Origin: Alphaproteobacteria bacterium MedPE-SWcel
GTDB lineage: Bacteria; Pseudomonadota; Alphaproteobacteria; Rhodobacterales; Rhodobacteraceae
Assembly: GCA_001874255.1 (NCBI GenBank)
Contig: MPDC01000025.1
Location: forward strand, 1-62,267
Length of the DNA stretch: 62,267 nt
Direction: 5' to 3'
The translations under genes and the position numbers were made by a program. Every line of letters starts with the position of its first letter. The first letter of the stretch is position 1. The notes beneath the pieces were generated by a model that had not been told where the DNA came from, ran no database searches, and saw nothing but the letters and a program-made list of their open reading frames with translations. Below are positions 31,890 through 47,144 of this stretch, piece after piece.

Positions 31890-31919
31890 GTCAGTTCTCC
31901 TTCGTCGGGGTGGGGCAGG

Positions 31920-32972
31920 TCAGCCCGCAACATGTTCGTCAAAGACCGCCTTGGCCCGCGCCCAGACACCGGCGTTGAGGTCGGTGAGGGTCAACAGGCT
32001 GGCCAGCAGCTGGTCTGCGTAATCCTCGGAGCTTTCAGCGGGCAGCATCGAGGGCAGGTTGTCGATCGCCATCACGTCGAGGACAGGATCCTCGGCCACC
32101 CTGATCACCGGGTCTGCCCATGTGGTGGCGTGGCTATAGACCGGGACCGGATTGTAGTCGCTATCGGGATCGCAGGCCACATCGCCCACGGCGGTCAGCC
32201 TGCGCGGCGCGGTGAGTGCATCCCGAGGCACGAACACCGGCGTGCCGGGGCGGGCAAAGATACAGTTCAGGAACAGATCGTGGTCCAGGATCTGCGGGAA
32301 GGGGCCGCCGCTTGCGGTTTCCGCCATGTCCCATTTGGTCACGGTGACGCCCAGTGCCTCGCAGAGGTCTGCCGCCCCGGTGCCAACCCGTCCCAAGGCG
32401 CCGATCACGATGGCGGTGGGGCGGTCAGTTTCGGTGGCGTCCAGTTCCTGGCCGAGGTCCGCCAGCAGCGCATGTTTGTCCGCGTAGACCCCGACCGGGC
32501 CGCAGATCTCGTGGCGCTGCTGCGCCGCCCAGGCCTTGAGCGTTACCGCGGCGCCGGCATAGCCCGCCCAATAGCCAAAGGCCGCCACGCGGCGTCCGTT
32601 TTCATCCACCAGATATTCAAGGTCATAGAGAGTGCCGCCGCCCTCCCGGAAGCGGCGCAGCAGCTCCCGCCCGGAATGCTGCCCCTTGAAGGCATGGCCG
32701 AACATGATGTGGCGGTGCGGCAAGGGTGTTCCGTCGTCGGGCAATTCCTTGAGGCCGAAGATGATCGCATCCTGCGGCGCATCGGGCCAGCTGTTCTCGG
32801 GCGCGATCTCGCAGCCCGCATCGATATAGCCCTGCAGCGCCAGCGCACGGGTCCGGCTGTCTTCCACGGTGACACGGATGCCGGCTGCGATCAACGCGCG
32901 GGCCCCCGATGGGGTCAGTCCTACACGGTCTTCATTCAGGCGCTGTTCGGCGCGCACCCAGAGATGGGTCAT
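31920..32972 (-). CDS. Saccharopine dehydrogenase (NAD+, L-lysine-forming, LYS1-like)
   Basis: 350 residues. AlaDH/PNT-type fold: N-terminal LWVRAEQRLNEDRVGLTPSGARALIAAG, HIMFGHAFKGQHSGRELLRRF and LYDLEYLVDENGRRVAAFG, then the NAD-binding domain (IVIGALGRVGTGAADLCEALG). These are the marks of LYS1-type enzymes, which join lysine and 2-oxoglutarate to saccharopine or do the reverse. The start at 32972 has an AAGGAAG site; the longer frame to 33257 is antisense-derived. It lies 11 bases after the GST gene and before the LYS9-like gene, so the two steps are encoded together. Confidence 0.9.
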   Translation of the reverse strand: MTHLWVRAEQRLNEDRVGLTPSGARALIAAGIRVTVEDSRTRALALQGYIDAGCEIAPENSWPDAPQDAIIFGLKELPDDGTPLPHRHIMFGHAFKGQHSGRELLRRFREGGGTLYDLEYLVDENGRRVAAFGYWAGYAGAAVTLKAWAAQQRHEICGPVGVYADKHALLADLGQELDATETDRPTAIVIGALGRVGTGAADLCEALGVTVTKWDMAETASGGPFPQILDHDLFLNCIFARPGTPVFVPRDALTAPRRLTAVGDVACDPDSDYNPVPVYSHATTWADPVIRVAEDPVLDVMAIDNLPSMLPAESSEDYADQLLASLLTLTDLNAGVWARAKAVFDEHVAG

Positions 32973-32983
32973 GTCGTCTTCCT

Positions 32984-33598
32984 TCAAAGCATTTTTCTGG
33001 CGCGGACGGCTTTGACGCTGTCGCGGGCTTCCATTGCCGCCATGAACGCGGCGATCTTCGGAAAGCGCGCGACCTGCACACCGTCGCCTTCGAGCCAGGT
33101 ACAGATCACAAAGAGATAGCAATCCGCAAGGCACAGCGTCTCGCCAAGGACAAACGGGCCGCGCAGGCCCCAGTCGCTGATATAGTCGCAGGAGGCCGCC
33201 ATGGTTTCGGGCACTTTTTGCGCCATGTCCGCGAACGACTCCGGGGTCGAAGCCCATCGGGCGCCGCGCATCTTGTGGGCGTGGTTCACATGCATTGTCG
33301 AGGCGAGATAGAACATCACTTCGCGCATGCGGGCCGCCAATATCGGGTCGCTCGGGCGCAGTTTCGCCTGCTCTGCGCGATCGGCGATGTACTCCAGCAA
33401 CGCGCCGGTTTCCGTCAGGATGCCGCCATCGACTACCAGCGCAGGTACCCGTCCCTTTGGATTGATCTGGTGGTATGCCTGTGTGGTCTGTTCTTTCTGC
33501 GCAAAGTCGACCTTGACCGGATCATACTCCAGCCCGGCTTCCTCCAGCGCAATGGCGACGGCGATCGATATGGTGTGGGGCGCATAATAGAGCTGCAT
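32984..33598 (-). CDS. Glutathione S-transferase family protein
   Basis: 204 residues. A thioredoxin-like N-domain (about 1-80; LYYAPHTISIAVAIALEEAGLEY, QINPKGRVPALVVDGG, LTETGALLEYIAD with the glutathione-binding ET/S pair) and an all-helical C-domain. The N-terminal catalytic position holds Thr/Ser (HTIS), as in beta/theta-like bacterial GSTs. The first gene of a likely GST-LYS1-LYS9 operon; why a GST accompanies lysine breakdown is not clear, and its substrate is unknown. Confidence 0.88.
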   Translation of the reverse strand: MQLYYAPHTISIAVAIALEEAGLEYDPVKVDFAQKEQTTQAYHQINPKGRVPALVVDGGILTETGALLEYIADRAEQAKLRPSDPILAARMREVMFYLASTMHVNHAHKMRGARWASTPESFADMAQKVPETMAASCDYISDWGLRGPFVLGETLCLADCYLFVICTWLEGDGVQVARFPKIAAFMAAMEARDSVKAVRARKML

Positions 33599-34790: not shown

Positions 34791-35510
34791 TCAACTCCAG
34801 CTGACATCGCCCAGAAAGATATAGCCGGCGCCGTAGATTGTTTTGATCAGGCGCGGGTTCTTGGGGTCTTCTCGCAGCTTTGTCCGCAGACGGGAAATCC
34901 GCACATCCATCGCCCGGTCAAAGCTGTCTCCGGCACCGCCGCCCAGCCGCTCCATCATCTGGGACCGGGAGATCAACCGTTTCGGACTGTCGAGAAACAG
35001 CCGCAGAACCTCGCCCTCGGCATGGGAGAATGTGGTCTCCTGGCCGTCGTCGTCTTCCAGCACATAGCGGTCGAAATGGGCGGTCCAGCCGGAAAAGCGC
35101 GCGCGGTCGCCGGTGGGCGCCTTGCCGCCCCGGGGCGCGACACGCAGGCGCACGCGAATACGGGCAACGACCTCTGCCGGGTCAAAGGGTTTGGTGATGT
35201 AGTCATCGGCCCCCAGTTCCAGACCGGTGACGCGGTCATGGACCTGTGCACGGCCGGATATGATGATCACGCTTGCGCCCTGTTCCAAGGCGAGCCGATG
35301 AACCAGGGCCAGGCCGTCGGAATCGGGCAGGGACAGATCCACCAGACAGACGTCCGGTGTCACCCGCTGCAGGGCGGCCTCAAAATCGCGCGCGCGGGAA
35401 AAGCTCTGGGTGCGGTAGCCTGCATCTTCCAGTGTTTCGGTCAGCAGGCGACGGATTTCCGGTTCGTCATCGAGAATGGTCACCAGCGGGGCGAGGGATG
35501 CGTCACGCAT
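34791..35510 (-). CDS. OmpR-family response regulator
   Basis: 239 residues. The receiver domain (about 8-120) has the acidic pair in TILDDEPEIRR, phospho-acceptor Asp 58 in VCLVDLSLPDSDG, Ser in IIISGRAQ and Lys 107 in DYITKPFDP. The OmpR/PhoB winged helix follows (EVLRLFLDSPKRLISRSQMMERL, DVRISRLRTKLREDPKNPRLIKTIYGAGYIF). The start at 35510 overlaps the 3' end of the hybrid kinase gene by 8 bases, so the two form one operon. It is the probable output of that kinase; the divergent transport/ligase cluster is the likely target. Confidence 0.93.
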   Translation of the reverse strand: MRDASLAPLVTILDDEPEIRRLLTETLEDAGYRTQSFSRARDFEAALQRVTPDVCLVDLSLPDSDGLALVHRLALEQGASVIIISGRAQVHDRVTGLELGADDYITKPFDPAEVVARIRVRLRVAPRGGKAPTGDRARFSGWTAHFDRYVLEDDDGQETTFSHAEGEVLRLFLDSPKRLISRSQMMERLGGGAGDSFDRAMDVRISRLRTKLREDPKNPRLIKTIYGAGYIFLGDVSWS

Positions 35511-37407
35511 GCGGTGCCTCCTGTTGCATGAGCGCCAGCAGCTGCGCGCGGTCAAAGGGCTTTTGCAGCAGCGGCGCCTGCGCCAGTGCCTTGAGAAAGA
35601 GCGGATCTGACTGGGGCAGTGATGTCATCAGCACCACCGGCGGCGCGCCGTCGCCCAGACGGTGACACAGATCGACCCCCGTGGCGCTGCCTTCGAGCCG
35701 GATGTCGGAGAGGATCAACGCGATGCCCTCTACATCTGCGACGAGGGCCACGGCTTCGTCGACGCTGGTGGCCTCGATGACGGAATAGCCGAGATCCATC
35801 AGAAGCTGGCGATAGGTTGCGCGCAGTTCGTCACTGTCTTCGACCAGCAGGGCGATGCCGGCCGCCGCCGTGGGGGCAACCCGATAGGGCAGCCGGAGCG
35901 TGACCAGTGCGCCGGATACGGTATTGCCGATCCGGATGTCGCCCCCGGCGGATTTCACCATGTCATAGACCATCGACAGCCCAAGCCCCGAGCCTTCCTG
36001 TCCCTTGGTGGTGAAGAACGGGTTGAGCGCATTGACCAGCGCCTCGGGCGAAAATCCGGGCCCGGTGTCGCCGACGGAGACTTCGATCCATGTATGCCCG
36101 ACCAGATGGGCGGACACCGTGATCTGGCCGCTGACCCCGCAGGCATCGCGGGCATTCAGGATCAGGTTCAAAAGCGCATCCTGCAGGCGGCCCGGGTCCA
36201 GCAGAAACCGGTCCATTCCGGTGTTGTCCAGAACGCTGAGGCCGATCCCCTGCGGCAGGGCGGGCGTTGCGAGGATCTTCAGTTCGGTCAGCAGCGCGTG
36301 CAGATCGGTCGCCTGCGCACGCAGGCCGGGGCGGCCGGTCATTTCGGCCATGCGGTCCAGCAGCCGCCCGCCCCGCCGCGCCGCAGAAAGGGTGCCGTCG
36401 ATCAGCTCTGTGGCGCCTGCGGGAAGATCCATCCGCGACAGTTTTGTCTGCATGCCCAGAATGATCGTCAGCAAATTCGAGAAATCATGCGCCAGCCCGC
36501 TGGTCATCTGGGCCGCGATTTCCCGTTTTCGCGCTTGCTGCAGGGCAACCCGGGCCTGGGTTTCTTCGGTCACATCCATCGACAGGATAAAGACTCCGCC
36601 TTCATGATCGGGGGTAAAGGCCACCCGCAGCCGCTGGCTGTTCACATCTTCGGTGAATTCGAACACCGGGCTGGCGCCCTGATAGGCTTCGGCCAGGTGC
36701 GGTTTGATCCGGGCATAGGCCGAGGGCCCCAGCGCGGTCGAGATATGCTGGCCGAGGATGCCGGACGAGCGACCGGGAAAGACCGAGCTCAACCGTCCGT
36801 TGGTGAAGGTATAATAGCCCTCATCGTCCACATGGGCGATGTGGGCGGGCATCATCTCGGTGGTCAGTCGCGTGCGCGCTTCGATCTGGGTCAGCTGCCG
36901 CTTGGTTTCTTCCAGCGTTTTGATCGTCGCCGCCAGATTGCGGTTGGTGGCGGAGAGTTCCTCGGTGTAGTTCATCACCTGATCCGAGAGTTCTTCGGAT
37001 CGCGCGCGCAGCAATTGCTCCACCCGTTTGGTGCGGGTGATATCGGTATAGACCGTAACCCAGCCGCCCTTGGGCAGGGGCGCCCCTTCGATCGAGATCA
37101 CTTGCCCGTTGGCGCGCTGGCGCTCGACGTAATGCGGAACGAAGGCGCGGGCCTGATCAACGCGCTGCTGCACGAAGTCCTCGATGTCGTCGATGGCTCC
37201 GTAATCCCCCTGCTCGGCGATGAAGCGGATGGTGTCGGCAAAGCTCGCCCCTTCCTGCACCAGATGCGCCGGCAGGTTGAACATCTCCTGAAAGCGATGG
37301 TTGCAGGCCGCCAGCCGCAACCTGTCGTCATAGACGGATAACGCCTGTGCAATCAGGTTCAACCCGGCATCAATCATGGCCGTGCGCTGTGCGTTGGTCT
37401 GTTTCAT
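35503..37407 (-). CDS. Hybrid histidine kinase: two PAS domains, HisKA, HATPase, receiver
   Basis: 634 residues, with no membrane helix. PAS 1 spans about 12-125 (ALSVYDDRLRLAACNHRFQEM, ending VTVYTDITRTKR). A coiled coil runs about 128-178 and PAS 2 about 180-285. HisKA has His 307 in SGLAHDFSNLLTIILG. HATPase N-box LNLILNARDAC (about 413-423), DTGPGF and GSGLGLSMVYDMV follow. The C-terminal receiver (about 516-634) has Asp 568 in LILSDIRLEG and Lys in LLQKPFD. The start is at 37407; a further in-frame ATG at 37491 is rejected. It diverges from the acyl-CoA ligase/ABC cluster. The ligand is unknown. Confidence 0.9.
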   Translation of the reverse strand: MKQTNAQRTAMIDAGLNLIAQALSVYDDRLRLAACNHRFQEMFNLPAHLVQEGASFADTIRFIAEQGDYGAIDDIEDFVQQRVDQARAFVPHYVERQRANGQVISIEGAPLPKGGWVTVYTDITRTKRVEQLLRARSEELSDQVMNYTEELSATNRNLAATIKTLEETKRQLTQIEARTRLTTEMMPAHIAHVDDEGYYTFTNGRLSSVFPGRSSGILGQHISTALGPSAYARIKPHLAEAYQGASPVFEFTEDVNSQRLRVAFTPDHEGGVFILSMDVTEETQARVALQQARKREIAAQMTSGLAHDFSNLLTIILGMQTKLSRMDLPAGATELIDGTLSAARRGGRLLDRMAEMTGRPGLRAQATDLHALLTELKILATPALPQGIGLSVLDNTGMDRFLLDPGRLQDALLNLILNARDACGVSGQITVSAHLVGHTWIEVSVGDTGPGFSPEALVNALNPFFTTKGQEGSGLGLSMVYDMVKSAGGDIRIGNTVSGALVTLRLPYRVAPTAAAGIALLVEDSDELRATYRQLLMDLGYSVIEATSVDEAVALVADVEGIALILSDIRLEGSATGVDLCHRLGDGAPPVVLMTSLPQSDPLFLKALAQAPLLQKPFDRAQLLALMQQEAPHA

Positions 37408-37555
37408 CTCCGCTCCCTGCCCATTGGCTAGCAGGTTGCGACAGGGAGGCAAAGCAGCTTGTGAGAGCGCAGGGTTTGGGCCGCGATCCACAAATAATCC
37501 GCACTTGTTACAATTCGAAAGGTTTCAGAAATCATCGCGAAAAACTTGCTTTGTT

Positions 37556-37576
37556 ACGTTAGGGCTGTCCTAATGT
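37556..37576. promoter_or_regulatory. Inverted repeat in the divergent kinase/ligase promoter region
   Basis: Arms ACGTTAGG and CCTAATGT (7 of 8 pairs, with TTAGG/CCTAA perfect) flank GCTGT. It is centred about 92 bases before the acyl-CoA ligase start and about 160 before the kinase start. A plausible binding site for the adjacent response regulator or another dimeric factor; no matching known motif recalled. Confidence 0.5.
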
Positions 37577-37657
37577 GGACATAAGGATCGCCCCGCACAC
37601 CCGTGCGAGAGGCGGCCAATCCGGTCGAGGAGGACCGGATACGGGAGGAGTAAATAC

Positions 37658-39643
37658 GTGTCTCACACCGCTGCGCAGACCCTGTCTGGCGCCGGGCAGT
37701 TCTTGTCTGTACCGGCCTTGCTGGAGAGAAATGCCACTGTCTATGCCGACCGCCCGGCCTATCGGGAGAAGGAATTTGGCATTTGGCAGAGCTGGACCTG
37801 GAGAGAAACCGCCGAGGAGATCGACGCGCTTGCGTTGGGTCTTCTGACGCTTGGGGTCTCGGAAGGGGATTTCATTGCCATCATCGGTCGCAACCGGCCG
37901 TCGCTATACTGGTCCATGGTGGCCGCGCAGAGCGTCGGTGCCGTGCCTGTGCCGATCTATCAGGATTCCGGTCCCGAAGAGATGGCCTATGTTCTGGATC
38001 ACTGCGGCGCGGCCTATGTGATCGCCGGCGATCAGGAGCAAGTCGACAAGGTTGTCGAAATCAAGGATCAGCTGGAGAACCTCAAACATGTGATCTACGT
38101 CGACCCGCGCGGGTTGCGGAAATACGATCACGAGCATTTGCACCCCTATCGTGAAGTGCAGGAGCGAGGGCGCGCTGCGCGGGCAGAGGTCGGCGGTGAG
38201 CTGACGACCCGGCGTGCCAGGCTGTCCTACGACAGTACCTGCGTCATGCTCTACACGTCCGGCACCACCGGCCGGCCAAAGGGCGTGGTTCTGTCGAACC
38301 GGAATGTCATTGAGAGCGCAAAAAATGCCAGTGAATTTGACAAGCTGACGGAGCGCGAAGAGGTTCTGTCCTATCTGCCCATGGCCTGGGTTGGTGATTT
38401 CATTTTCTCTCTGGGTCAAAGCTACTGGTGCGGCTTCTGCGTCAATTGTCCGGAGAGCCCGGATACGATGATGACCGACCTGCGCGAAATCGGCCCGACC
38501 TATTTCTTTGCGCCGCCCCGGGTGTTCGAGGGTCAGCTGACCAATGTGATGATCCGGATGGAGGACGCCAGTCGTCTGAAACAGCGGATGTTTCACTACT
38601 TCCTTGCGCATGCCAAGAAGGTTGGAGGGCGGATCCTTGACGGAAAGCCGGTGAGTGGTTCGGACCGTTTGAAATACTGGCTCGGCAATCTGCTGATCTA
38701 CGGCCCGTTGAAGGATACGCTGGGATATGGCCGTATTCGCGTCGGCTATACGGCGGGCGAGGCGATCGGGCCGGAGATCTTTGATTTCTACCGGAGTCTC
38801 GGGATCAACCTGAAGCAGCTCTATGGTCAGACCGAAGCGACGGTTTTCATCACGGTGCAGCCGGATGGTGAAGTGCGGGCGGATACGGTTGGTGTTCCGG
38901 CGCCTGATGTCGAGATCAAGATCGATGAAACCGGAGAGATACATTACCGGTCGCCCGGAACCTTTGTCGAATATTACAAGAATGCCGAGTCGACGGCGTC
39001 GACCAAGGACGCCGAGGGCTGGGTCGCGACGGGGGATGCGGGCTTTATCGAGGAGACCTCGGGACACTTGCGGATCATCGACCGGGCCAAGGATGTCGGG
39101 AAAATGGCCGATGGCGCGATGTTTGCGCCGAAATACGTCGAGAACAAGCTGAAGTTCTATCCCGATATTCTGGAAGCCGTGGTCTTCGGCAATGGCCGCG
39201 ATCGCTGTGTGGCGTTTATCAATATCGACCTGACGGCGGTCGGGAACTGGGCCGAGCGCAACAATATTGCCTATGGATCCTATCAGGAGCTGGCCGGGCA
39301 CCCGCGGGTTCTGGAGACGATCCGGTCACATGTGGAGGCGGTCAACGTCTCGGTGGCGCAGGACGAAATGCTGTCGGGCTGTCAGATCCATCGCTTTGTG
39401 GTGCTGCACAAGGAACTGGATGCCGATGATGGCGAAATCACCCGCACGGGCAAGGTGCGTCGCCGCATCGTCGAGGAGAAATTCGCCGATATCATCGCCG
39501 CCCTGTATGACGGTTCGGAGCAGGTCTCGACCCGGACCGAAGTCACCTATGAGGACGGGCGCAAGGGCGCGATCAGCGCCACGCTCAGCCTTGTGGACGC
39601 CAAGGTGCAATCCGCGATCACGCGCGCGGTGGCGGCAGAATGA
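37658..39643 (+). CDS. AMP-dependent acyl-CoA ligase, long-chain (FadD15-like) type
   Basis: 661 residues. It activates a carboxylic acid with ATP and CoA through an acyl-AMP. The P-loop MLYTSGTTGRPKGVVLS, the PMAWVGD stretch, YGQTEATVFIT and GWVATGDAGFIEE with the hinge DRAKDVGKMADG are intact. The total length and insertions match the long-chain ACSL-like class rather than acetyl-CoA synthetase. The start is GTG with a strong GGGAGGAG site. It is the first gene of the cluster with a LIV-type ABC transporter and a second CoA ligase, suggesting it traps an imported acid. The natural substrate is unknown. Confidence 0.88.
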   Translation: MSHTAAQTLSGAGQFLSVPALLERNATVYADRPAYREKEFGIWQSWTWRETAEEIDALALGLLTLGVSEGDFIAIIGRNRPSLYWSMVAAQSVGAVPVPIYQDSGPEEMAYVLDHCGAAYVIAGDQEQVDKVVEIKDQLENLKHVIYVDPRGLRKYDHEHLHPYREVQERGRAARAEVGGELTTRRARLSYDSTCVMLYTSGTTGRPKGVVLSNRNVIESAKNASEFDKLTEREEVLSYLPMAWVGDFIFSLGQSYWCGFCVNCPESPDTMMTDLREIGPTYFFAPPRVFEGQLTNVMIRMEDASRLKQRMFHYFLAHAKKVGGRILDGKPVSGSDRLKYWLGNLLIYGPLKDTLGYGRIRVGYTAGEAIGPEIFDFYRSLGINLKQLYGQTEATVFITVQPDGEVRADTVGVPAPDVEIKIDETGEIHYRSPGTFVEYYKNAESTASTKDAEGWVATGDAGFIEETSGHLRIIDRAKDVGKMADGAMFAPKYVENKLKFYPDILEAVVFGNGRDRCVAFINIDLTAVGNWAERNNIAYGSYQELAGHPRVLETIRSHVEAVNVSVAQDEMLSGCQIHRFVVLHKELDADDGEITRTGKVRRRIVEEKFADIIAALYDGSEQVSTRTEVTYEDGRKGAISATLSLVDAKVQSAITRAVAAE

Positions 39644-39730
39644 GGCCGGTCGGATCGACGCTCGTGCAGGCAAGCTGCACATCGCCCCGCCCGCCGTCCC
39701 CAAAAACGACAGAAATCGAAGGAGGGGCCC

Positions 39731-40549
39731 ATGCTTGACCAATCCGACAGCTATTTGACCGAGGACGGCCGCAGGATTGGCGCTGTGGTCATGGAGATGA
39801 AGAACATCACCCTGCGCTTTGGCGGAGTGGTGGCCATCAAGGACATCTCCTTTGATATTCGCGAGGGAGAGATCCGCGCGATCATCGGTCCCAACGGCGC
39901 GGGCAAGTCCTCGATGCTGAATGTGATCTCGGGATTTTACGTGCCGCAGGACGGCGAGGTTCTGTTCCACGGCAAGAAACGCCCGCCGATGCGCCCCTAT
40001 GAGGTCGCACGTCAGGGCATTGCGCGCACCTTTCAGAACATTGCCCTGTTTGATGGCATGAGCGTGCTCGACAATGTGATGACCGGGCGTCTGAACTATA
40101 TGAAAACGAACCTTTTTCAGCAGGCCTTGTGGAAGGGCTGGGCGGAGAAGGAAGAGACCGAAAACCGGGAAGTGGTGGAAAAGATCATCGACTTTCTCGA
40201 AATTCAGGCCATCCGCAAGACCCCGGTGGCGCGGCTGCCCTACGGGTTGAAAAAGCGTGTCGAACTGGCCCGTGCATTGGCTGCGGAACCAAAGCTGTTG
40301 CTGCTGGACGAGCCGATGGCGGGCATGAACGTCGAGGAGAAAGAGGACATGTCCCGCTTCATCCTCGATGTGAATGACGAGTTCGGCACCACGATCGCCC
40401 TGATCGAGCACGACATGGGCGTGGTCATGGATCTGAGCGACCGGGTCGTGGTGATGGATTATGGCAAGAAAATTGGCGACGGCACACCAGACGAGGTGCG
40501 CAACAACCAGGATGTGATCGATGCCTATCTGGGGGTGTCCCATGACTGA
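39731..40549 (+). CDS. LIV-type (HAAT) ABC transporter ATP-binding protein, LivG-like
   Basis: 272 residues. Walker A GPNGAGKSSMLNVISG, Q-loop in GIARTFQNIALFDGMSVLDNV, Walker B LLLLDEPMAGMNVEEKE, switch His in ALIEHDMGVV. The ABC signature reads LPYGLKKRVELARAL rather than LSGGQ, a known LivG-type variation. AGGAGG precedes the ATG. With the LivF-like partner it forms the nucleotide-binding pair of the importer. Confidence 0.92.
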   Translation: MLDQSDSYLTEDGRRIGAVVMEMKNITLRFGGVVAIKDISFDIREGEIRAIIGPNGAGKSSMLNVISGFYVPQDGEVLFHGKKRPPMRPYEVARQGIARTFQNIALFDGMSVLDNVMTGRLNYMKTNLFQQALWKGWAEKEETENREVVEKIIDFLEIQAIRKTPVARLPYGLKKRVELARALAAEPKLLLLDEPMAGMNVEEKEDMSRFILDVNDEFGTTIALIEHDMGVVMDLSDRVVVMDYGKKIGDGTPDEVRNNQDVIDAYLGVSHD

Positions 40550-40578
40550 GGCTGCAGAAAAAAACAAGGAGGCGTGCC

Positions 40579-41565
40579 ATGTCTGATCAACTGATCTTTG
40601 CCATGGAGGTGACGCTGAACGGGCTGATGGCGGGCGTGCTCTATGCGCTGGTCGCGCTGGGCTTCGTGCTGATTTACAAGGCGTCGGGCATTTTCAACTA
40701 CGCTCAGGGCGTCATGGCGCTTTTCGCCGCCATGACCCTTGTCGGCATCATGAACGGGCAGGTGCCGTTTTCGCACCTGATCAACGCCCTGTTTGGCGGG
40801 CACACGACCCATTTCGGCTGGACCGTGCCGTCGCTGGTGGCGATCTTGATGACGATTGCGGTCATGGTGGTCCTCGCTTGGCTCGTGCAGGTTCTGGTGA
40901 TGAAGCATCTCGTGGGGCAGGAGCCGATCATCCTGTTCATGGCCACCATTGGTCTGGCCTACTTCCTCGAAGGCGTGGCAGACCTGATGTGGGGGTCGGA
41001 GATAAAGACCCTCGATGTCGGGCTGCCGCAGGGGATCAACCTGTGGATCGACGAGACGACCTTGGGGATTTTCGGCTACGGCTTCTTTATCGACAACCTC
41101 GACATCGTGGCGACTGTGATCGCGGCCCTGTTGGTCACGGGGCTGGTGCTGTTCAGCCAGTATACCAAGCAGGGACGGGCCATGCGCGCGGTCGCGGATG
41201 ATCATCAGGCGGCGCTGTCGGTCGGGATCTCGCTGAATTTCATCTGGGTGCTGGTCTGGTCCGTCGCGGGTTTTGTTGCGCTGGTCGCGGGCATCATGTG
41301 GGGCACCAAATCGGGGGTGCAGTTCTCGCTGTCTCTGATTGCGCTCAAGGCCCTGCCGGTGCTGATGCTCGGCGGCTTCACCTCGATACCGGGAGCCATC
41401 GTCGGCGGCCTCATCATCGGGGTCGGGGAAAAACTCTTTGAGTTTCTCATCGGCCCGATGGTGGGCGGCGCGACCGAAAACTGGTTCGCCTATGTGCTTG
41501 CGCTGATCTTTCTGGTGTTCCGCCCTCAGGGCCTCTTTGGAGAAAAGATCATTGAGCGTGTCTGA
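40579..41565 (+). CDS. LIV-type ABC transporter permease, LivH-like
   Basis: 328 residues, with about 8 membrane helices. Family blocks: LNGLMAGVLYALVALGFVLIYKASGIFNYAQG near the N-terminus, then RAMRAVADDHQAALSVGIS (the EAA-like cytoplasmic loop) and LGGFTSIPGAIVGGLIIGVGE. AAGGAGG precedes the ATG. The next gene on the same strand, the LivM-like permease, is 800 bases away because an antisense gene lies between them. Confidence 0.92.
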   Translation: MSDQLIFAMEVTLNGLMAGVLYALVALGFVLIYKASGIFNYAQGVMALFAAMTLVGIMNGQVPFSHLINALFGGHTTHFGWTVPSLVAILMTIAVMVVLAWLVQVLVMKHLVGQEPIILFMATIGLAYFLEGVADLMWGSEIKTLDVGLPQGINLWIDETTLGIFGYGFFIDNLDIVATVIAALLVTGLVLFSQYTKQGRAMRAVADDHQAALSVGISLNFIWVLVWSVAGFVALVAGIMWGTKSGVQFSLSLIALKALPVLMLGGFTSIPGAIVGGLIIGVGEKLFEFLIGPMVGGATENWFAYVLALIFLVFRPQGLFGEKIIERV

Positions 41566-41601
41566 TCCCAATCTCGTCCCTGCCTTGCCAGCGCTGCAGA
41601 C

Positions 41602-42087
41602 TCAGGTCTGCATACGCTGGAAGGCTGCGATGACGATGGCGGCAAACACCGTAATGGCCAGCGTCAGCGCGATGGTGATGTCGCCAATCAGCCGTCCGAT
41701 CAGAAAGGTCATGAGCCCGGCCGCGCAGAGACCGATAAAAATGAGCCCCCAGAACGATGAAATATCGTCCGGATTGCCCGCAGATGTCTCCGTGCGGACT
41801 TCGGGGCGGACTTCGGGGCGGGCCTCGGCACGGGCCTGTGGCCGGTCCGGGGACGGGGCACGCGACGGCGCGGGGCCGGGCGCAGGTTCAGGCGCGCGTC
41901 TCGGTCTGACCGGTGCGGCACGTGCCGTCGGCTGCGACCGCGGTTGCGCGGAAAAAGAGGGCGTGACATCGGCATCCTCGACCGACGCCAGAATCCTCTC
42001 TCTCTCGGTTGCATATTCTTTGGCGGAAATATCGCCACGTTTCCGGGCAGCATCCAGCTGCCGGATTTCTTCCAAAATCGCAGTCAT
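41602..42087 (-). CDS. Small membrane protein with SHOCT-like N-terminus, antisense within the transporter cluster
   Basis: 161 residues from the ATG at 42087 (another in-frame start is 3 codons upstream). The N-terminal 35 residues (ILEEIRQLDAARKRGDISAKEYATERERIL) resemble a SHOCT-type short helical motif. A Pro/Ala/Arg-rich disordered linker follows, with RPEVRPEVRTE repeats, then two adjacent membrane helices (FWGLIFIGLCAAGLMTFLIG, ITIALTLAITVFAAIVIAAF). It is transcribed against the surrounding operon, between the two permease genes. The function is unknown. Two AATGTGGCGAA repeats lie just upstream. Confidence 0.72.
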   Translation of the reverse strand: MTAILEEIRQLDAARKRGDISAKEYATERERILASVEDADVTPSFSAQPRSQPTARAAPVRPRRAPEPAPGPAPSRAPSPDRPQARAEARPEVRPEVRTETSAGNPDDISSFWGLIFIGLCAAGLMTFLIGRLIGDITIALTLAITVFAAIVIAAFQRMQT

Positions 42088-42113
42088 CTTACCCACTCAC
42101 ATTTCCCACGCAG

Positions 42114-42148
42114 AATGTGGCGAACAGATTTGGGCAAAATGTGGCGAA
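42114..42148. promoter_or_regulatory. Direct repeat upstream of the antisense membrane-protein gene
   Basis: Two exact copies of AATGTGGCGAA (42114-42124 and 42138-42148) start 24 bases apart, 27-61 bases before the minus-strand start at 42087. The spacing and position suggest an activator or repressor site. The remainder of 42149-42364 has no further clear signal except GGGAG before the LivM-like start. Confidence 0.5.
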
Positions 42149-42364
42149 ACACGGATATCTGACGAAATGGTTAACGGCGCCAACTCTGCGAGGGACCTGC
42201 CGATCGACCGGATCTCCGTGCTGCACAGAGCTGCGCCCGCGCCGCGCCCAGCCATGAGGCCCGCCTTCGCACCGGGCGGCGGGGTGTCGATGCAGCGGCA
42301 CCCAATCCCGTCGGGGCGCGGCGTGGTGAATAATTATAACGTAAACACAGGGAGCCTCTGAGCC

Positions 42365-43441
42365 ATGTTCTATCGTGAAGCCGGAGATTTCAAACTCTCC
42401 TATGTCGAGGACAGCCAGACCTTTCCGATCCGGTTTGACCGCTATCGCTACTTTGCCGTTCTGGCCGTGGCCTATGGGGTGATCCCGTTCTTCGTTAATG
42501 ACTACTGGGTCAATGCCATCCTGCTGCCCTTCCTGATCTATGCCATTGCCGCAATCGGGCTGAATATCCTGGTGGGATATTGCGGGCAGGTGAGTCTCGG
42601 GACGGGGGGGTTCATGGCGGTAGGTGCCTATGCCTGCTACAAGCTGATGACCGCTTTTCCGGATGTGTCGATGTTCATCCACGTTCTGTTGGCGGGGGGC
42701 GTGACGGCACTGGTCTGCGTGTTGTTCGGCCTGCCCTCGCTGCGGATCAAAGGGTTCTATCTCGCGGTTGCGACGCTGGCGGCGCAGTTCTTTCTTGTGT
42801 GGCTCTTCAACCGGGTGCCGTGGTTTTACAACTACTCGGCCTCGGGCCAGATCAATGCGCCCGAGCGCGACGTCTTCGGCATTCTTGTCACCGGTCCTAA
42901 TGCGCCGGCCTGGGCAACCTATATGTTCTGCCTGATCTTCCTGACCTTCTGCGCCGTCATCGCCCGCAATCTGACGCGTGGCACGCAGGGGCGGACGTGG
43001 ATGGCGATCCGCGACATGGATATCGCCGCCGAGATCATCGGCGTCAGCCCGTTGAAAGCCAAGATGACCGCCTTTGCGGTCTCGGGCTTCTTTGTGGGCA
43101 TATCGGGGGCGCTGTTCTTTTCGGTCTACCTCGGCGCCGTCGAGGTGGGTGAGGTCTTTGGCATCAACAAATCGTTCCTGGTCCTGTTCATGGTGATCAT
43201 CGGCGGATTGGGGTCGATCTTTGGCTCCTTTGCCGGGGCGGCATTTCTGGTGCTGCTGCCGGTGGTGCTGAAGGTGGTCGGCGTCGACATGCTGGGATGG
43301 CCGACGGACATCGTGGCACATTTTCAGCTGGTGATTGTCGGTGCGTTGATCGTGACGTTTCTGATCCTTGAACCGCACGGCTTGGCTCAGCTCTGGCGGG
43401 TCGCAAAGGAAAAATTGCGGCTCTGGCCCTTCCCGCACTAG
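42365..43441 (+). CDS. LIV-type ABC transporter permease, LivM-like
   Basis: 358 residues, with about 9-10 membrane helices. Blocks: LPFLIYAIAAIGLNILVGYCGQVSLGTGGFMAVGAY (the GQxSLG motif typical of LivM), GLPSLRIKGFYLAVATLAAQFF and RTWMAIRDMDIAAEIIGV (EAA-like loop), ending with GGLGSIFGSFAGAAFLVLLP. It pairs with the LivH-like permease upstream of the antisense gene. Confidence 0.92.
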   Translation: MFYREAGDFKLSYVEDSQTFPIRFDRYRYFAVLAVAYGVIPFFVNDYWVNAILLPFLIYAIAAIGLNILVGYCGQVSLGTGGFMAVGAYACYKLMTAFPDVSMFIHVLLAGGVTALVCVLFGLPSLRIKGFYLAVATLAAQFFLVWLFNRVPWFYNYSASGQINAPERDVFGILVTGPNAPAWATYMFCLIFLTFCAVIARNLTRGTQGRTWMAIRDMDIAAEIIGVSPLKAKMTAFAVSGFFVGISGALFFSVYLGAVEVGEVFGINKSFLVLFMVIIGGLGSIFGSFAGAAFLVLLPVVLKVVGVDMLGWPTDIVAHFQLVIVGALIVTFLILEPHGLAQLWRVAKEKLRLWPFPH

Positions 43442-43529
43442 CCGGGACATGACACTCGCCGGGGCCTGTCGGAGGAGGTCGGCCCCGATTTTGTAGACAT
43501 CGGAAAAATTCAAGGGAGGATGAAACCCG

Positions 43530-44813
43530 ATGAAACTGAAATTGACGACTCTGGCGCTTGGTGCGCTGATGATGGCCGGTCCCGCTATGGCCGACCTCGT
43601 GTTCCCGGATCTGAGCTACCGCACAGGTCCCTATGCAGCGGGCGGCATTCCGTTCTCTGACGGCTACAATGACTATTTCACCCTCATCAACGAGCGTGAC
43701 GGCGGCATCGGTGGCATCAAGGCGCGCGTTGTTGAATGCGAAACCGGCTACAACACCGAAAAAGGTGTGGAATGCTACGAGTCCACCAAGGGTGAAGGCG
43801 CGTTGATCTATCAGCCCCTGTCAACAGGGATCACCTATCAGCTCATCCCCAAAGTGACGGCAGATGGCATTCCGCTTCACACCATGGGCTATGGCCGGAC
43901 ATCTGCGGCGAATGGCAAGGTGTTCAGCAATGTGTTCAACTACCCGGCCAACTATTGGGACGGGGCGTCCGGCGTCATCAACTACCTGCTGGAAGAGAAC
44001 ACGGGCGACATCAAGGGCAAGAAGGTCGCGTTGGTCTATCACAACTCCGCCTATGGCAAGGAGCCGATCCGTACGCTGGAAGAGCTGTCCAAGAAGCACG
44101 GGTTCGAGCTGAGCCTGCTGCCAGTGGATCACCCCGGTCAGGAACAGAAATCCCAGTGGCTGCAAATCCGCCGTGATCGTCCCGACTATGTCGTGATGTG
44201 GGGCTGGGGCGTGATGAACCAGGTCGGCGTGCAAGAAGCCGCCAACATCCGCTTTCCGATGGAGAATTTCATCGGCGTGTGGTGGTCCGGTGCCGAGCAT
44301 GACGTGATTCCCGCCGGCGCCAAGGCCGATGGCTACAAGGCGATCACTTTCCACAATGTTGGTCGCGACTTCCCGGTCTTTGACGATGTGCAGACCTATG
44401 TCGTCGACAAGGGTCTGGCAGCGGGCGCCGGTGATCAGATCGGCAATGTGCTCTACAATCGCGGATTCTACGCGGCAATGCTCGCGGTAGAAGCGGCCAA
44501 GAAGGCGCAGGAAATTCATGGTGTGGCCGACATCAACCCGGCGATGATGCGGGACGGTATGGAGGCGCTGGAAATTACCCAGGAGATCATGACCGAACTT
44601 GGCATGCCCAGCTTCGGCCCCTCCTTTTCCGTGTCCTGTGAAAACCACGGTGGTCCTGGCCTCGTTGGTATGACCCAATGGGATGCGGAGACGCAGACCT
44701 GGTCGATGATCTCGGGCTTCAACCCGACGGATTCCGAAGTGATCGGCGCATTGGTCGCCGAGGATTCTGCGGCCTATGCGGCAGAAGCCAACATCGAAGA
44801 GCGCTGCAACTAA
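43530..44813 (+). CDS. LIV-type ABC transporter substrate-binding protein
   Basis: 427 residues, with a signal peptide (LTTLALGALMMAGPAMAD). It is a type I periplasmic binding fold of the Peripla_BP_6/LivK class: YRTGPYAAGGIPFSDGYNDYFTLINERDGGIGG, the TGYNTEKGVECYE stretch and KKVALVYHNSAYGKEPI. It is longer than classical LivK (about 370), and the first-lobe binding region differs, as in members that bind aromatic or other acids. GGGAGG precedes the ATG. A strong hairpin follows the stop. It determines what the importer takes up; the ligand cannot be told from sequence alone. Confidence 0.9.
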   Translation: MKLKLTTLALGALMMAGPAMADLVFPDLSYRTGPYAAGGIPFSDGYNDYFTLINERDGGIGGIKARVVECETGYNTEKGVECYESTKGEGALIYQPLSTGITYQLIPKVTADGIPLHTMGYGRTSAANGKVFSNVFNYPANYWDGASGVINYLLEENTGDIKGKKVALVYHNSAYGKEPIRTLEELSKKHGFELSLLPVDHPGQEQKSQWLQIRRDRPDYVVMWGWGVMNQVGVQEAANIRFPMENFIGVWWSGAEHDVIPAGAKADGYKAITFHNVGRDFPVFDDVQTYVVDKGLAAGAGDQIGNVLYNRGFYAAMLAVEAAKKAQEIHGVADINPAMMRDGMEALEITQEIMTELGMPSFGPSFSVSCENHGGPGLVGMTQWDAETQTWSMISGFNPTDSEVIGALVAEDSAAYAAEANIEERCN

Positions 44814-44822
44814 AGCGCTCGT

Positions 44823-44850
44823 CGCGCCGGGGGCATCGTCTCCCGGCGCG
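44823..44850 (+). terminator. Intra-operon hairpin after the binding-protein gene
   Basis: Arms CGCGCCGGG and CCCGGCGCG (9 perfect pairs) with a 10-base loop, 10 bases after the binding-protein stop. There is no T-run. Such hairpins often stabilise the upstream message or cut read-through so that the binding protein is made in excess over the ATPase. Confidence 0.6.
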
Positions 44851-44933
44851 GACACTTGCACATCTGATACGGCGACTGTTTGCCGGATCCGAACCGTCCC
44901 GGCGGGACACTTGTGAAGGAATAGGCGATCGAT

Positions 44934-45770
44934 ATGCTGGACGCGGCCAACACGACAGACGCACAGGTGGAAACACTGCTCGAGGTCAACAATATCGAGG
45001 TGATCTACAATCATGTGATCCTTGTTTTGAAAGGCGTCAGCCTCAAGGTGCCCAAGGGCGGCATCACCGCGCTATTGGGCGGCAATGGCGCAGGCAAGAC
45101 CACCACACTGAAGGCGATTTCCAGCCTTTTGCACTCCGAGCGGGGCGAGGTCACCAAGGGCTCCGTCCTCTATCGCGGCGCCGATGTACAGGCGCAGGAT
45201 CCTGCTGATCTGGTGCGCAAAGGCGTGATCCAGGTCATGGAGGGGCGCCATTGCTTTGAGCATCTGACCGTCGAGGAAAACCTGCTGACCGGGGCCTACA
45301 CGCGCAACGATGGCAGCGCCAAAATCCAGGATGATCTGGAGATGGTCTATACCTATTTCCCGCGCCTGAAGGAACGCCGCAAGAGCCAGGCTGGCTATAC
45401 CTCGGGCGGGGAGCAGCAGATGGTCGCGATGGGGCGCGCATTGATGAGCCGCCCCGAGACGATCCTGCTGGACGAGCCGTCCATGGGTCTGGCCCCGCAA
45501 TTGGTGGAGCAGATTTTCCAGATCGTGAAATCGATCAACGAGAATGAAGGCGTGACCTTTCTTCTGGCGGAGCAGAACACCAACGTGGCGCTGCGCTATG
45601 CCCATTATGGCTACATTCTGGAGTCCGGGCGCGTGGTAATGGACGGCCCGGCCGCCGATCTGCGCGAGAACCCCGACGTCAAGGAGTTCTATCTCGGCAT
45701 GTCGGACGAGGGCCGCAGGAGTTTCCGTGATGTGCGGTCCTACCGCCGTCGCAAGAGGTGGCTGAGCTGA
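44934..45770 (+). CDS. LIV-type ABC transporter ATP-binding protein, LivF-like
   Basis: 278 residues. Walker A GGNGAGKTTTLKAIS, the LivF-type block VMEGRHCFEHLTVEENLLTGAY, signature YTSGGEQQMVAMGRALMSRP, Walker B ILLDEPSMGLAPQLVEQIF and FLLAEQN in place of the switch-His region's usual context. The N-terminal 15 residues and the basic C-terminal tail (RSYRRRKRWLS) extend beyond the compact LivF. It ends 17 bases before the second ligase gene. Confidence 0.92.
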   Translation: MLDAANTTDAQVETLLEVNNIEVIYNHVILVLKGVSLKVPKGGITALLGGNGAGKTTTLKAISSLLHSERGEVTKGSVLYRGADVQAQDPADLVRKGVIQVMEGRHCFEHLTVEENLLTGAYTRNDGSAKIQDDLEMVYTYFPRLKERRKSQAGYTSGGEQQMVAMGRALMSRPETILLDEPSMGLAPQLVEQIFQIVKSINENEGVTFLLAEQNTNVALRYAHYGYILESGRVVMDGPAADLRENPDVKEFYLGMSDEGRRSFRDVRSYRRRKRWLS

Positions 45771-45787
45771 CGCGGAAAGGACACGTC

Positions 45788-47008
45788 ATGACGACTTACT
45801 TTGATGCACTGGAAACGCGTAGCAGCGATGCGCGTGCGGCGGATCTGGCCCGCGCTTTGCCCGAGCAGATTGCCCGCGCCAAATCTGCGCCCGGCTTTGC
45901 AATTCTGCTGGCGGATGTGGATCCCGCCCGGATTACCTCAGTGGCCGAGCTGGCAAAACTGCCGGTGTTGCGCAAGGCGGATCTGAGCGCCTCGCAGGCC
46001 CGGCACCCGCCCTTTGGCGGCTTTACGGTGAAACCTGCGCATGGCTTTGCCCATATCTTTCAATCTCCGGGACCAATCTACGAGCCCGGCGGAGTGGAGC
46101 ATGACTGGTGGCGCATGGGCCGTTTTCTCCATGCGGCGGGTGTCGGCCCCGGAGATGTGGTGCAGAACTGCTTTGGCTATCATCTGACGCCTGCGGGAAT
46201 GATATTTGAAAGCGGCGCCCGGGCGGTCGGAGCGGCTGTGTTGCCGGCGGGGACGGGCCAGACCGAGCTTCAGGTCACGGCAGCCAGGGATGTGGGCGCG
46301 ACCACATATGCAGGCACCCCAGACTATCTGAAGGTCATTCTGGACAAGGCCGAGGCCATGGGGGTGCAACTTGGCTTTCGCAAGGCTGCCGTCGGTGGCG
46401 GCGCGCTGTTCCCGAGCCTGCGCAAGGACTATGCGGATCGGGGGATTTCCTGTCTGCAATGCTACGCGACGGCGGATCTTGGAAACATCGCCTATGAAAG
46501 CGCCGCGATGGAGGGGATGATCGTCGACGAGCGGGTCATCGTGGAAATCGTGACGCCCGGGACCGGAACGCCAGTCGCCCCTGGCGAGGTGGGCGAAGTT
46601 GTGGTGACCACGCTCAACCCGGATTATCCGTTGATCCGCTTTGCCACTGGCGATCTGTCTGCCGCAATGCCAGGCCAGAGCCCCTGTGGCCGCACGAACA
46701 TGCGGATCAAGGGCTGGATGGGCCGTGCGGATCAGACCACAAAGATCAAGGGCATGTTCGTACGGCCAGAGCAGGTTGCGGCGCTGGTCGACAAGCATGA
46801 CGAGATCGTCAAGGCGCGCGTCGTTGCCTCCCGGGACGGTGAGATGGACATGATGACGGTCCGCATTGAGGCCAATGGCGGTGATGCGACCCGTTTTGCC
46901 CGCTCTGTGGTCGACGTGCTGAAGCTGAAAGGAACGGTGGATATCGTCGCCCCCGGCAGCCTGCCCAAGGATGGTCTGGTGATCGAGGATCAGCGCAAAT
47001 ACGACTGA
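45788..47008 (+). CDS. Phenylacetate-CoA ligase (PaaK)-like enzyme
   Basis: 406 residues. An AMP-forming CoA ligase of the PaaK branch: LPVLRKADLSASQARHPPFGG near the N-terminus, the GYHLTPAGMIFESGARAVGAAVLP stretch, TYAGTPDYLKVILDKAE, CYATADLGNIAYES, and the C-terminal GRADQTTKIKGMFVRPEQV. The TSGTTG-like loop of typical PaaK reads QSPGPIY, a divergence that may change its chemistry or substrate. GGAAAGGA precedes the ATG. It ends the transporter cluster, so one importer is bracketed by two unrelated CoA ligases. Confidence 0.85.
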   Translation: MTTYFDALETRSSDARAADLARALPEQIARAKSAPGFAILLADVDPARITSVAELAKLPVLRKADLSASQARHPPFGGFTVKPAHGFAHIFQSPGPIYEPGGVEHDWWRMGRFLHAAGVGPGDVVQNCFGYHLTPAGMIFESGARAVGAAVLPAGTGQTELQVTAARDVGATTYAGTPDYLKVILDKAEAMGVQLGFRKAAVGGGALFPSLRKDYADRGISCLQCYATADLGNIAYESAAMEGMIVDERVIVEIVTPGTGTPVAPGEVGEVVVTTLNPDYPLIRFATGDLSAAMPGQSPCGRTNMRIKGWMGRADQTTKIKGMFVRPEQVAALVDKHDEIVKARVVASRDGEMDMMTVRIEANGGDATRFARSVVDVLKLKGTVDIVAPGSLPKDGLVIEDQRKYD

Positions 47009-47047
47009 GAGCCTGCGGCTCCCAGTTCTCAAACCCTCGGTGAGGTC

Positions 47048-47084
47048 ACCGCCGCTGCCGACACGCCGTCGCAGCGGCGGTTTC
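47048..47084 (+). terminator. Intrinsic terminator after the PaaK-like gene
   Basis: Arms ACCGCCGCTG and CAGCGGCGGT pair perfectly (10 pairs) around a 14-base loop and are followed by TTTC. It lies about 40 bases after the ligase stop and ends the ligase-transporter cluster before the iron permease gene. Confidence 0.8.
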
Positions 47085-47144
47085 ACGCTGGAACTTCTGG
47101 CGGAAATGCGTGAAACAGGAGGGGCACTGTTGCAGGCAGGATGA

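Follow-up and report, generated by a model that had tools for sequence, protein, structure and literature searches.

LIV-type (HAAT) importers such as LivFGHMJ and UrtABCDE are built from two ATPases, two permeases, and one binding protein of the Peripla_BP_6 family. In gene clusters of the benzoate box or hba type, an importer of this kind is accompanied by an aryl-coenzyme A (CoA) ligase, and the uptake of an acid is combined with its CoA activation. The phenylacetate-CoA ligase PaaK (TIGR02155; 2Y27, 2Y4O, and 4R1L) carries an SSGTTG loop. A 62,267-nucleotide stretch of Alphaproteobacteria bacterium MedPE-SWcel (contig MPDC01000025.1, the window) contains a seven-gene module in which a LIV-type ATP-binding cassette (ABC) importer is bracketed by an acyl-CoA ligase and a PaaK-like protein, and a soluble hybrid histidine kinase and its response regulator are encoded divergently. 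There is, in our estimate, about an even chance that the module is a self-contained system by which isovalerate, isobutyrate, 2-methylbutyrate, or closely related short branched-chain carboxylic acids are imported under the control of a sensor and activated with CoA, the substrate being deduced from gene context.

The module is read from the forward strand. It starts with a long-chain-type acyl-CoA ligase of 661 amino acids (ACSL, 37658–39643; Pfam AMP-binding and AMP-binding_C_3) in which the adenylation motifs are present. The transporter follows with an ATPase of the LivG type (39731–40549, ABC_tran), permeases of the LivH type (40579–41565) and the LivM type (42365–43441, both BPD_transp_2), a periplasmic binding protein (43530–44813, Peripla_BP_6), and an ATPase of the LivF type (44934–45770, ABC_tran). 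The PaaK-like protein (45758–47008) is last. An earlier note on this DNA had described nine genes, namely a complete transporter set, two ligase-like genes, and the divergent kinase and regulator. All nine were found in place and assigned by Pfam, with the PaaK-like protein being assigned by its predicted structure.

The gene arrangement was compared in 100 loci, comprising the best 80 named loci from a scan of species-representative genomes (nearly all close relatives) and 20 loci from class relatives. The recurring order is ACSL-livG-livH-livM-binding protein-livF-PaaK-like. Because all seven genes recur in 86/100 loci, the arrangement is not due to chance, and the conservation of both ligases beside the transporter, on which the earlier note had staked its reading, is borne out in relatives. 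ACSL is present in 94 loci, and the remaining six are cut off on the ACSL side. In nine of the 14 incomplete loci, as well as on the left side of L077, the locus end falls within the module or directly next to it. Searched across the class, the binding protein gave matches at E 1e-30 in 59/240 genomes and 50/203 genera. In the scan of species-representative genomes, its best named match among those listed is from Tritonibacter horizontis (91% identity), and the host resembles a roseobacter near Tritonibacter. Among 20 loci at the phylum level, 14 keep the same order, four place livG before ACSL (L182, L184, L188, and L189), and two have the PaaK-like gene apart (L180 and L187); no binding-protein match was scored in L182 and L184. 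The module is widespread yet uncharacterized, and none of the papers listed in the literature search could be tied to it. In the annotated records that were opened, its genes carry generic names (branched-chain amino-acid transporter, AMP-binding protein, or phenylacetate-CoA ligase).

Some variation is seen within the module. A second ligase subtype with 36–40% identity to the ACSL of the window occupies the ACSL slot in L124, L129, L133, L135, L136, L182, L184, L188, and L189. In the five class loci, the loop of this subtype is TTSGTTSNPK or TTSGTTAHPK; in the other four loci, livG lies upstream of the ligase gene. The gap between livH and livM is at most 12 bases in 18/20 class loci. A conserved sense small protein of ~85 amino acids (MTKLIAIINVIAWSGFWAFGYLAL...) occurs in 35/55 livH-livM gaps of at least 180 base pairs (bp), for example in L045, where it stands immediately upstream of livM at 8848; it was not found in the window.

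Judged from its sequence, the PaaK-like protein represents a distinct family that lacks the ATP phosphate-binding loop (P-loop). The predicted structure (pLDDT 90.5) has PaaK-type ligases as top Foldseek matches (E 5e-35). Its score against Pfam AMP-binding (24.2 bits) is under the cut-off of 29.9, the score against the PaaK model TIGR02155 is 121.7 bits at a cut-off of 646.3, and no NCBIfam cut-off or Pfam gathering score is reached by the window protein. All 22 members of the sequence set A2 resemble PaaK models, with cut-offs being given for the first member. Strong matches to the family were obtained in 67/398 phylum genomes including the window's own, with one in each genome and scores of 542–695 bits; none of the other listed matches, which include true PaaK proteins, exceeds 264 bits. 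The surroundings of the gene in 36 of the 67 genomes place it beside the module in 31, apart in four, and at a contig end in one. Where it stands apart (G550, G391, G517, and G189), ACSL and livF are found elsewhere on the same contig in 4/4, ~8–180 kilobases (kb) off; the distant ACSL and livF of G391 are of a more divergent subtype (41% and 57% identity).

At the position of the PaaK P-loop SSGTT, the window protein has S103-P104-G105-P106-I107 (codons 46064–46078). SPG is found here in 92/92 aligned family sequences (SPGPI 87, SPGPL 3, SPGPV 1, SPGYI 1), and the Ser-Thr-Thr-Gly of the PaaK P-loop is gone from all of them. The solved relatives 4R1L, 2Y4O, 2Y27, and 6HDW keep the SGTTG loop, and the SGTT loop is present in 20/20 lower-scoring control open reading frames (ORFs; 19 distinct genes). 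The catalytic A10 lysine of PaaK aligns with Leu407 in the window (codon 46976–46978). Across the family, this position is Lys in 32/92 and Leu, Ile, Val, or Arg in 60/92; the lysine is visible in 19/20 control ORFs and not resolved in the 20th. Since the altered loop is 99% identical to the consensus versus 74% for the entire protein, the change is, by this measure, not decay. A midpoint-rooted tree was built from 29 family proteins, the window protein, two intermediates, and the 20 control ORFs (one gene twice). The family plus the two intermediates split from the controls with support of 0.995 and 1.0; the family without the intermediates has a support of 0.15. The intermediates (L190/L210, 258 bits, and L191/L211, 243 bits) bear SPGP and lie in or within ~4 kb of livG/ACSL/livH/livM, which suggests that the altered loop arose before this family did. 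A canonical PaaK (SSGTTGKP) is encoded separately, elsewhere in the window's genome.

As the P-loop is replaced in 92/92 sequences and the A10 lysine of the window protein is also gone, the PaaK-like protein is probably no normal ligase and most likely non-adenylating. Its non-canonical nature is fairly well supported by these alignments. The earlier note had proposed that the imported acid is activated in two alternative or successive ways; with a PaaK-like protein lacking the PaaK P-loop throughout the aligned family, such dual activation is not supported. In a proteomic table of Roseobacter litoralis (PMC4103551), a putative phenylacetate-CoA ligase of 44.7 kDa has an entry of −2.04 for its change; by size, it would be compatible with the PaaK-like family.

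The module is controlled, in all likelihood, by the genes divergent to it. A response regulator of the OmpR type (34791–35510, reverse strand; Pfam response regulator receiver and Trans_reg_C) and the soluble hybrid histidine kinase (35503–37407, reverse strand; PAS_7, PAS_4, HATPase, and receiver) are encoded there. Their ORFs are open to 35555 and 37491, respectively, and the starts at 35510 and 37407 were judged likely real from the start positions of homologs. The phospho-acceptor D73 of the regulator is present in 46/46 aligned sequences, the kinase H335 in 47/47, and its receiver D596 in 46/47. The earlier note had counted on a kinase conserved beside the transporter. This holds for the 51 loci in which the kinase is divergent to ACSL; in 40/89 loci having at least 3 kb upstream, it was not found beside the module. 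The kinase is lineage-specific.

A conserved 45-bp block, TGTTACAATTCGTAAGATTTGGGAAAACATCACGAAAAAGTTGAC, lies upstream of ACSL and is a candidate operator (37506–37550 in the window, forward strand, matching 36/45 positions of the consensus). Candidate half-sites inside of it are a direct repeat or TTAC-N5-GTAA. Of 93 loci scored, all 51 with the kinase divergent beside ACSL have an operator score of at least 26/45. The consensus was derived from kinase-bearing loci, so the presence of the operator at these loci is partly by construction; more independent tests are offered by unlinked cases, a family scan, and plasmid copies. Among the 42 loci without an adjacent kinase, nine score at least 30 and the other 33 at most 23. 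A 16-base core pattern with at most one mismatch has the window site as its sole match in its own genome. A 26-base pattern with at most two mismatches was found in 45/120 family genomes (the window's included), exactly once in each, and its reversed control gave none. Thirty of these 45 sites were fetched; ACSL stands at the site in 30/30, and the kinase lies within 1.5 kb in 28/30.

From the 120-genome scan, 30 family genomes were picked, 13 with the 26-base pattern and 17 without. The kinase is present in 16 of them, which are all 13 with the pattern and three with a diverged operator scoring 28–35, and the operator accompanies it in 16/16. In ten genomes, ACSL is present but the kinase is not; the operator was found in none of these (best score 23, shuffles up to 24), and the remaining four have neither gene. 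The kinase/regulator pair is displaced to another contig in one genome, by ~252 kb in another, and by 4–7 kb in two more. In all four cases, the regulator is still next to the kinase and the operator is still at ACSL. Operator scores were taken for seven of 11 opened plasmid loci: Rhizobiaceae plasmid copies with the pair have the operator in 4/4 (33–36), and copies without it in 0/3 (at most 20). Because the operator co-occurs with the kinase in 51/51 loci, exists once per genome, and stays at ACSL when the pair is far away, a dedicated regulatory system for one operon is well supported, in which the regulator would bind the operator. The sensing and import of a carboxylic acid, as had been proposed in the earlier note, is strengthened by this co-inheritance, even with the pair unlinked in two genomes.

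That note had called the substrate not evident. This is true inside of the window, where no isovaleryl- or isobutyryl-CoA genes are found among ten flanking ORFs scanned; in some relatives, on the other hand, genes for branched-chain acyl-CoA catabolism adjoin the module. Neighbors were counted in 145 loci; at least two places are represented by two entries, and in many cases the stretch does not reach far enough to reveal distant genes. An isovaleryl-CoA dehydrogenase follows the module on the same strand in 7/145 loci (one being the source of the query itself), with a carboxylase in six of the seven, and a B12 acyl-CoA mutase is beside the module in 2/145. On plasmid p2 of Azospirillum brasilense, one flank holds isobutyryl-CoA dehydrogenase and mmsB. 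The other holds aldehyde dehydrogenase, isovaleryl-CoA dehydrogenase, thiolase, acyl-CoA dehydrogenase, carboxylase subunits, enoyl-CoA hydratase, and 3-hydroxy-3-methylglutaryl-CoA (HMG-CoA) lyase. In Peteryoungia desertarenae, the kinase and regulator are divergent to the module, which continues into an isovaleryl-CoA-type gene set like that of A. brasilense; its HMG-CoA lyase (L290) is above the curated cut-off, and two further Rhizobiaceae plasmids match the gene set. Isovaleryl-CoA dehydrogenase also lies 3′ of the module in two Amylibacter loci, L089 and the kinase- and regulator-bearing L073, and in Nitratireductor L109 (without the PaaK-like gene). The class relative L122 has 3-hydroxyisobutyryl-CoA hydrolase and 3-hydroxyisobutyrate dehydrogenase above curated cut-offs, and the hydrolase is also above its cut-off in L073. 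In Xanthobacter autotrophicus Py2 and Roseovarius sp. THAF8 (L286 and L295), both plasmid-borne, the module is preceded by a TetR gene, a split B12 acyl-CoA mutase, and a MeaB-type GTPase; the mutase of Py2 is presumably the pivalyl-/isovaleryl-CoA mutase. In the window's own genome, another contig encodes an isovaleryl-CoA dehydrogenase of 70% identity and, ~2 kb on, a carboxyltransferase of 70% identity.

The neighboring genes form a minority pattern in several lineages that points moderately to C4–C5 branched acyl-CoAs. As the ligase is a fixed partner, the imported form would be the free acid. An aromatic acid was considered as substrate and dropped, as the annotated copies opened show no genes for ring cleavage or phenylacetate oxidation next to the module, the exceptions being a PaaD/PaaI-type thioesterase beside the Xanthobacter module and a Rieske-type oxygenase with its reductase ~7 kb beyond the Methylibium copy. 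A feruloyl-CoA synthase lies ~15 kb beyond the Peteryoungia module.

Several observations weigh against the uptake of short branched-chain acids by a fixed module. The PaaK-like gene is missing despite at least 7.9 kb of room in five of the 14 incomplete loci (L075, L077, L091, L104, and L109). The flanks of distant loci share no common partner gene family among the 25 commonest families of 104 ORFs, which were longest-ORF picks and some of which may be antisense. Isovaleryl-CoA dehydrogenase was not found in 138/145 loci within the stretch available, which is short in some. Two of 13 Azospirillum copies were opened, with the pathway being present in one and absent in the other, and the 11 of 27 plasmid hits that were opened comprise four with the pathway, two with the mutase, and five with neither. 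A branched-chain 2-oxo-acid dehydrogenase complex lies near the Peteryoungia module, so amino or oxo acids may also be substrates. The models could not separate the carboxylase/dehydrogenase sets of branched-chain acids from those of acyclic terpenoid acids. Finally, ACSL resembles long-chain ligases, and 4N03, which is titled as a fatty acid ABC transporter binding protein, ranks second among the fold matches of the binding protein.

These last two points lead to the alternative that survives best, in which the module serves the import and activation of fatty acids of medium or long chain length, ACSL being a normal long-chain ligase linked to an ABC importer. ACSL keeps the TSGTT loop core, YGxTE, TGD, and the A10 Lys in 95/95 aligned sequences and the last loop Gly in 90/95. 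Its best NCBIfam model is the fatty acid-CoA ligase FadD11 with 264 bits; the cut-off of 950 is, however, not reached. For the binding protein, whose structure was predicted with a pLDDT of 92.1, the best fold match and nearest solved relative is 4RU0, with a template modeling (TM) score of 0.89, followed by a broad LIV-type group; no protein paper on 4RU0 was among the literature matches listed. 4N03 is also matched at the sequence level, but its TM score of 0.71 is no better than that of many amino- or aromatic-acid binders. As far as these models go, the fold matches do not fix a ligand. With the identified adjacent pathway genes fitting branched C4–C5 acyl-CoAs, fatty-acid uptake is regarded as unlikely.

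A further alternative concerns the PaaK-like protein, which could, in spite of its unusual phosphate loop, still use ATP as an active ligase and thereby provide true dual activation. The fold is retained, the A7 aspartate D299 and the A8 residues R323 and D325 are invariant in the 92 aligned sequences, an acidic A5 residue is kept, and about a third of the family still has the A10 lysine. Yet the P-loop residues are gone from every aligned member, and the A10 lysine was not found in the window protein and 59 others, which renders an active ligase rather improbable.

Acyclic terpenoid acids are served by the same carboxylase/dehydrogenase sets, and the module could accordingly take up isoprenoid acids of the citronellate/geranate type that are degraded via geranyl-CoA-type carboxylation. 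The sets of carboxylase, dehydrogenase, crotonase, and HMG-CoA lyase fit this route too. L122 and L073, however, carry valine/isobutyrate-type genes that are unneeded for terpenoid acids. The second-best model of the crotonase is gamma-carboxygeranoyl-CoA hydratase, though below its cut-off. Among the mutants affected on monoterpenes, a Castellaniella transposon study lists insertions that hit LivH and the region immediately 5′ of a phenylacetate-CoA ligase (PMC5876002); these genes may belong to a copy of the module. Altogether, isoprenoid acids are held to be a quite improbable substrate.

The least probable alternative is a branched-chain amino-acid importer with incidental ligases: it is favored by the LIV-type subunits (all five above Pfam cut-offs, which places them in the LIV-type ABC importer superfamily), by the Leu/Ile/Val catabolic genes adjacent in some relatives, and by the 2-oxo-acid dehydrogenase complex near the Peteryoungia copy, but ACSL is missing only where loci are cut off and a CoA ligase is unneeded in amino-acid catabolism, the LivF/G/H/M equivalog scores of 207/250/84/118 bits are all under the cut-offs of 441/362/379/366, and the leucine-bound structure 4N0Q matches the binding protein weakly in its N-terminal half (E 6e-7).

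If the module handles short branched-chain acids, its operation may be pictured as follows. The PAS-domain hybrid kinase would sense an intracellular cue, and its OmpR-type partner would bind the 45-bp operator upstream of ACSL and control this one operon, as their co-inheritance supports. The binding protein together with LivHM and LivGF would take up the acid, as is suggested by their family, and ACSL with its intact motifs would form the acyl-CoA. The PaaK-like protein keeps the adenylate-binding fold without the ATP-phosphate loop and most likely does not adenylate. In the weakest step, it may act as a non-adenylating partner that binds the acyl-adenylate or acyl-CoA and finishes or regulates the reaction or the transporter. 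The acyl-CoA would then feed acyl-CoA oxidation of the leucine/isoleucine/valine type. A bolder and doubtful version is that the SPGPI family is a novel type of adenylate-fold protein that has no P-loop and depends on its partner. Being incapable of using ATP on its own, the SPGPI protein would receive the acyl-adenylate or acyl-CoA of ACSL and then complete thioester formation or gate the importer in response to the amount of activated acid. If true, SPGPI protein, ACSL, and importer would be physically joined in one import-activation machine for branched acids that is turned on by its own kinase.

Further features of the window lie around these genes. A strong hairpin at about 47048–47081 (forward strand) follows the operon, with z = −3.7 for the folded 81-nt stretch 47030–47110. 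The earlier note had placed a terminator here; the hairpin stands, the long T-run is missing, and the terminator scan, whose rule demands such a run, listed none at this place. A scan of the window with Rfam at the gathering threshold returned one tRNA and nothing else. Between livH and livM, an antisense ORF of 164 amino acids (41602–42096, reverse strand) with a hydrophobic C-terminal part had been overlooked in the earlier note; it has no Pfam match. It was dropped as a regulatory part because tblastn recovers it in only 5/100 loci; similar-looking antisense ORFs exist in a few others. At 30747–33257 (reverse strand), a saccharopine-dehydrogenase-type and an alanine-dehydrogenase/PNT-type gene adjoin, possibly a pair for lysine degradation.

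If the uptake of branched-chain acids is read correctly, the generic annotations give a wrong idea of the compounds that these cells import. For enzyme mechanism, the P-loop-less ligase fold poses a clear puzzle, and the single-site, co-inherited operator offers a testable sensor-promoter pair that could reveal the substrate.

The comparison with the known systems can be drawn as follows. The Py2 system resembles the module in that the module adjoins the split B12 acyl-CoA mutase on the Py2 plasmid, and differs in that no mutase is seen beside it in the window. Liu (leucine/isovalerate) clusters share the genes for isovaleryl-CoA dehydrogenase, carboxylase, and HMG-CoA lyase, which follow the module in some relatives, whereas the Liu-type genes of the window's own genome are located outside the window on another contig. 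We know of no description of Liu clusters that contain this module. PaaK shares the fold and most of the active-site frame with the PaaK-like protein, in which, unlike in PaaK, the SSGTTG loop is replaced by SPG in 92/92, the window protein is without the A10 lysine, and the score is far under the family cut-off. Compared to LivFGHMJ and UrtABCDE, the transporter has the same subunit composition, but its subunits stay below the LivF/G/H/M and UrtB/C/D/E cut-offs, and it is partnered by an acyl-CoA ligase and nearly always by the PaaK-like protein. The benzoate box and hba-type clusters are alike in acid uptake and CoA activation. The module differs from them by its P-loop-less second ligase-like protein and by its adjacent genes, which lack ring-cleavage genes in the annotated copies opened and, where present, fit branched-chain acyl-CoA catabolism. 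Parts of the module recall known LIV-plus-CoA-ligase clusters; new here are the P-loop-less PaaK-like family, the 45-bp operator that is co-inherited with the kinase, and the branched acyl-CoA genes beside the module in a minority of relatives.

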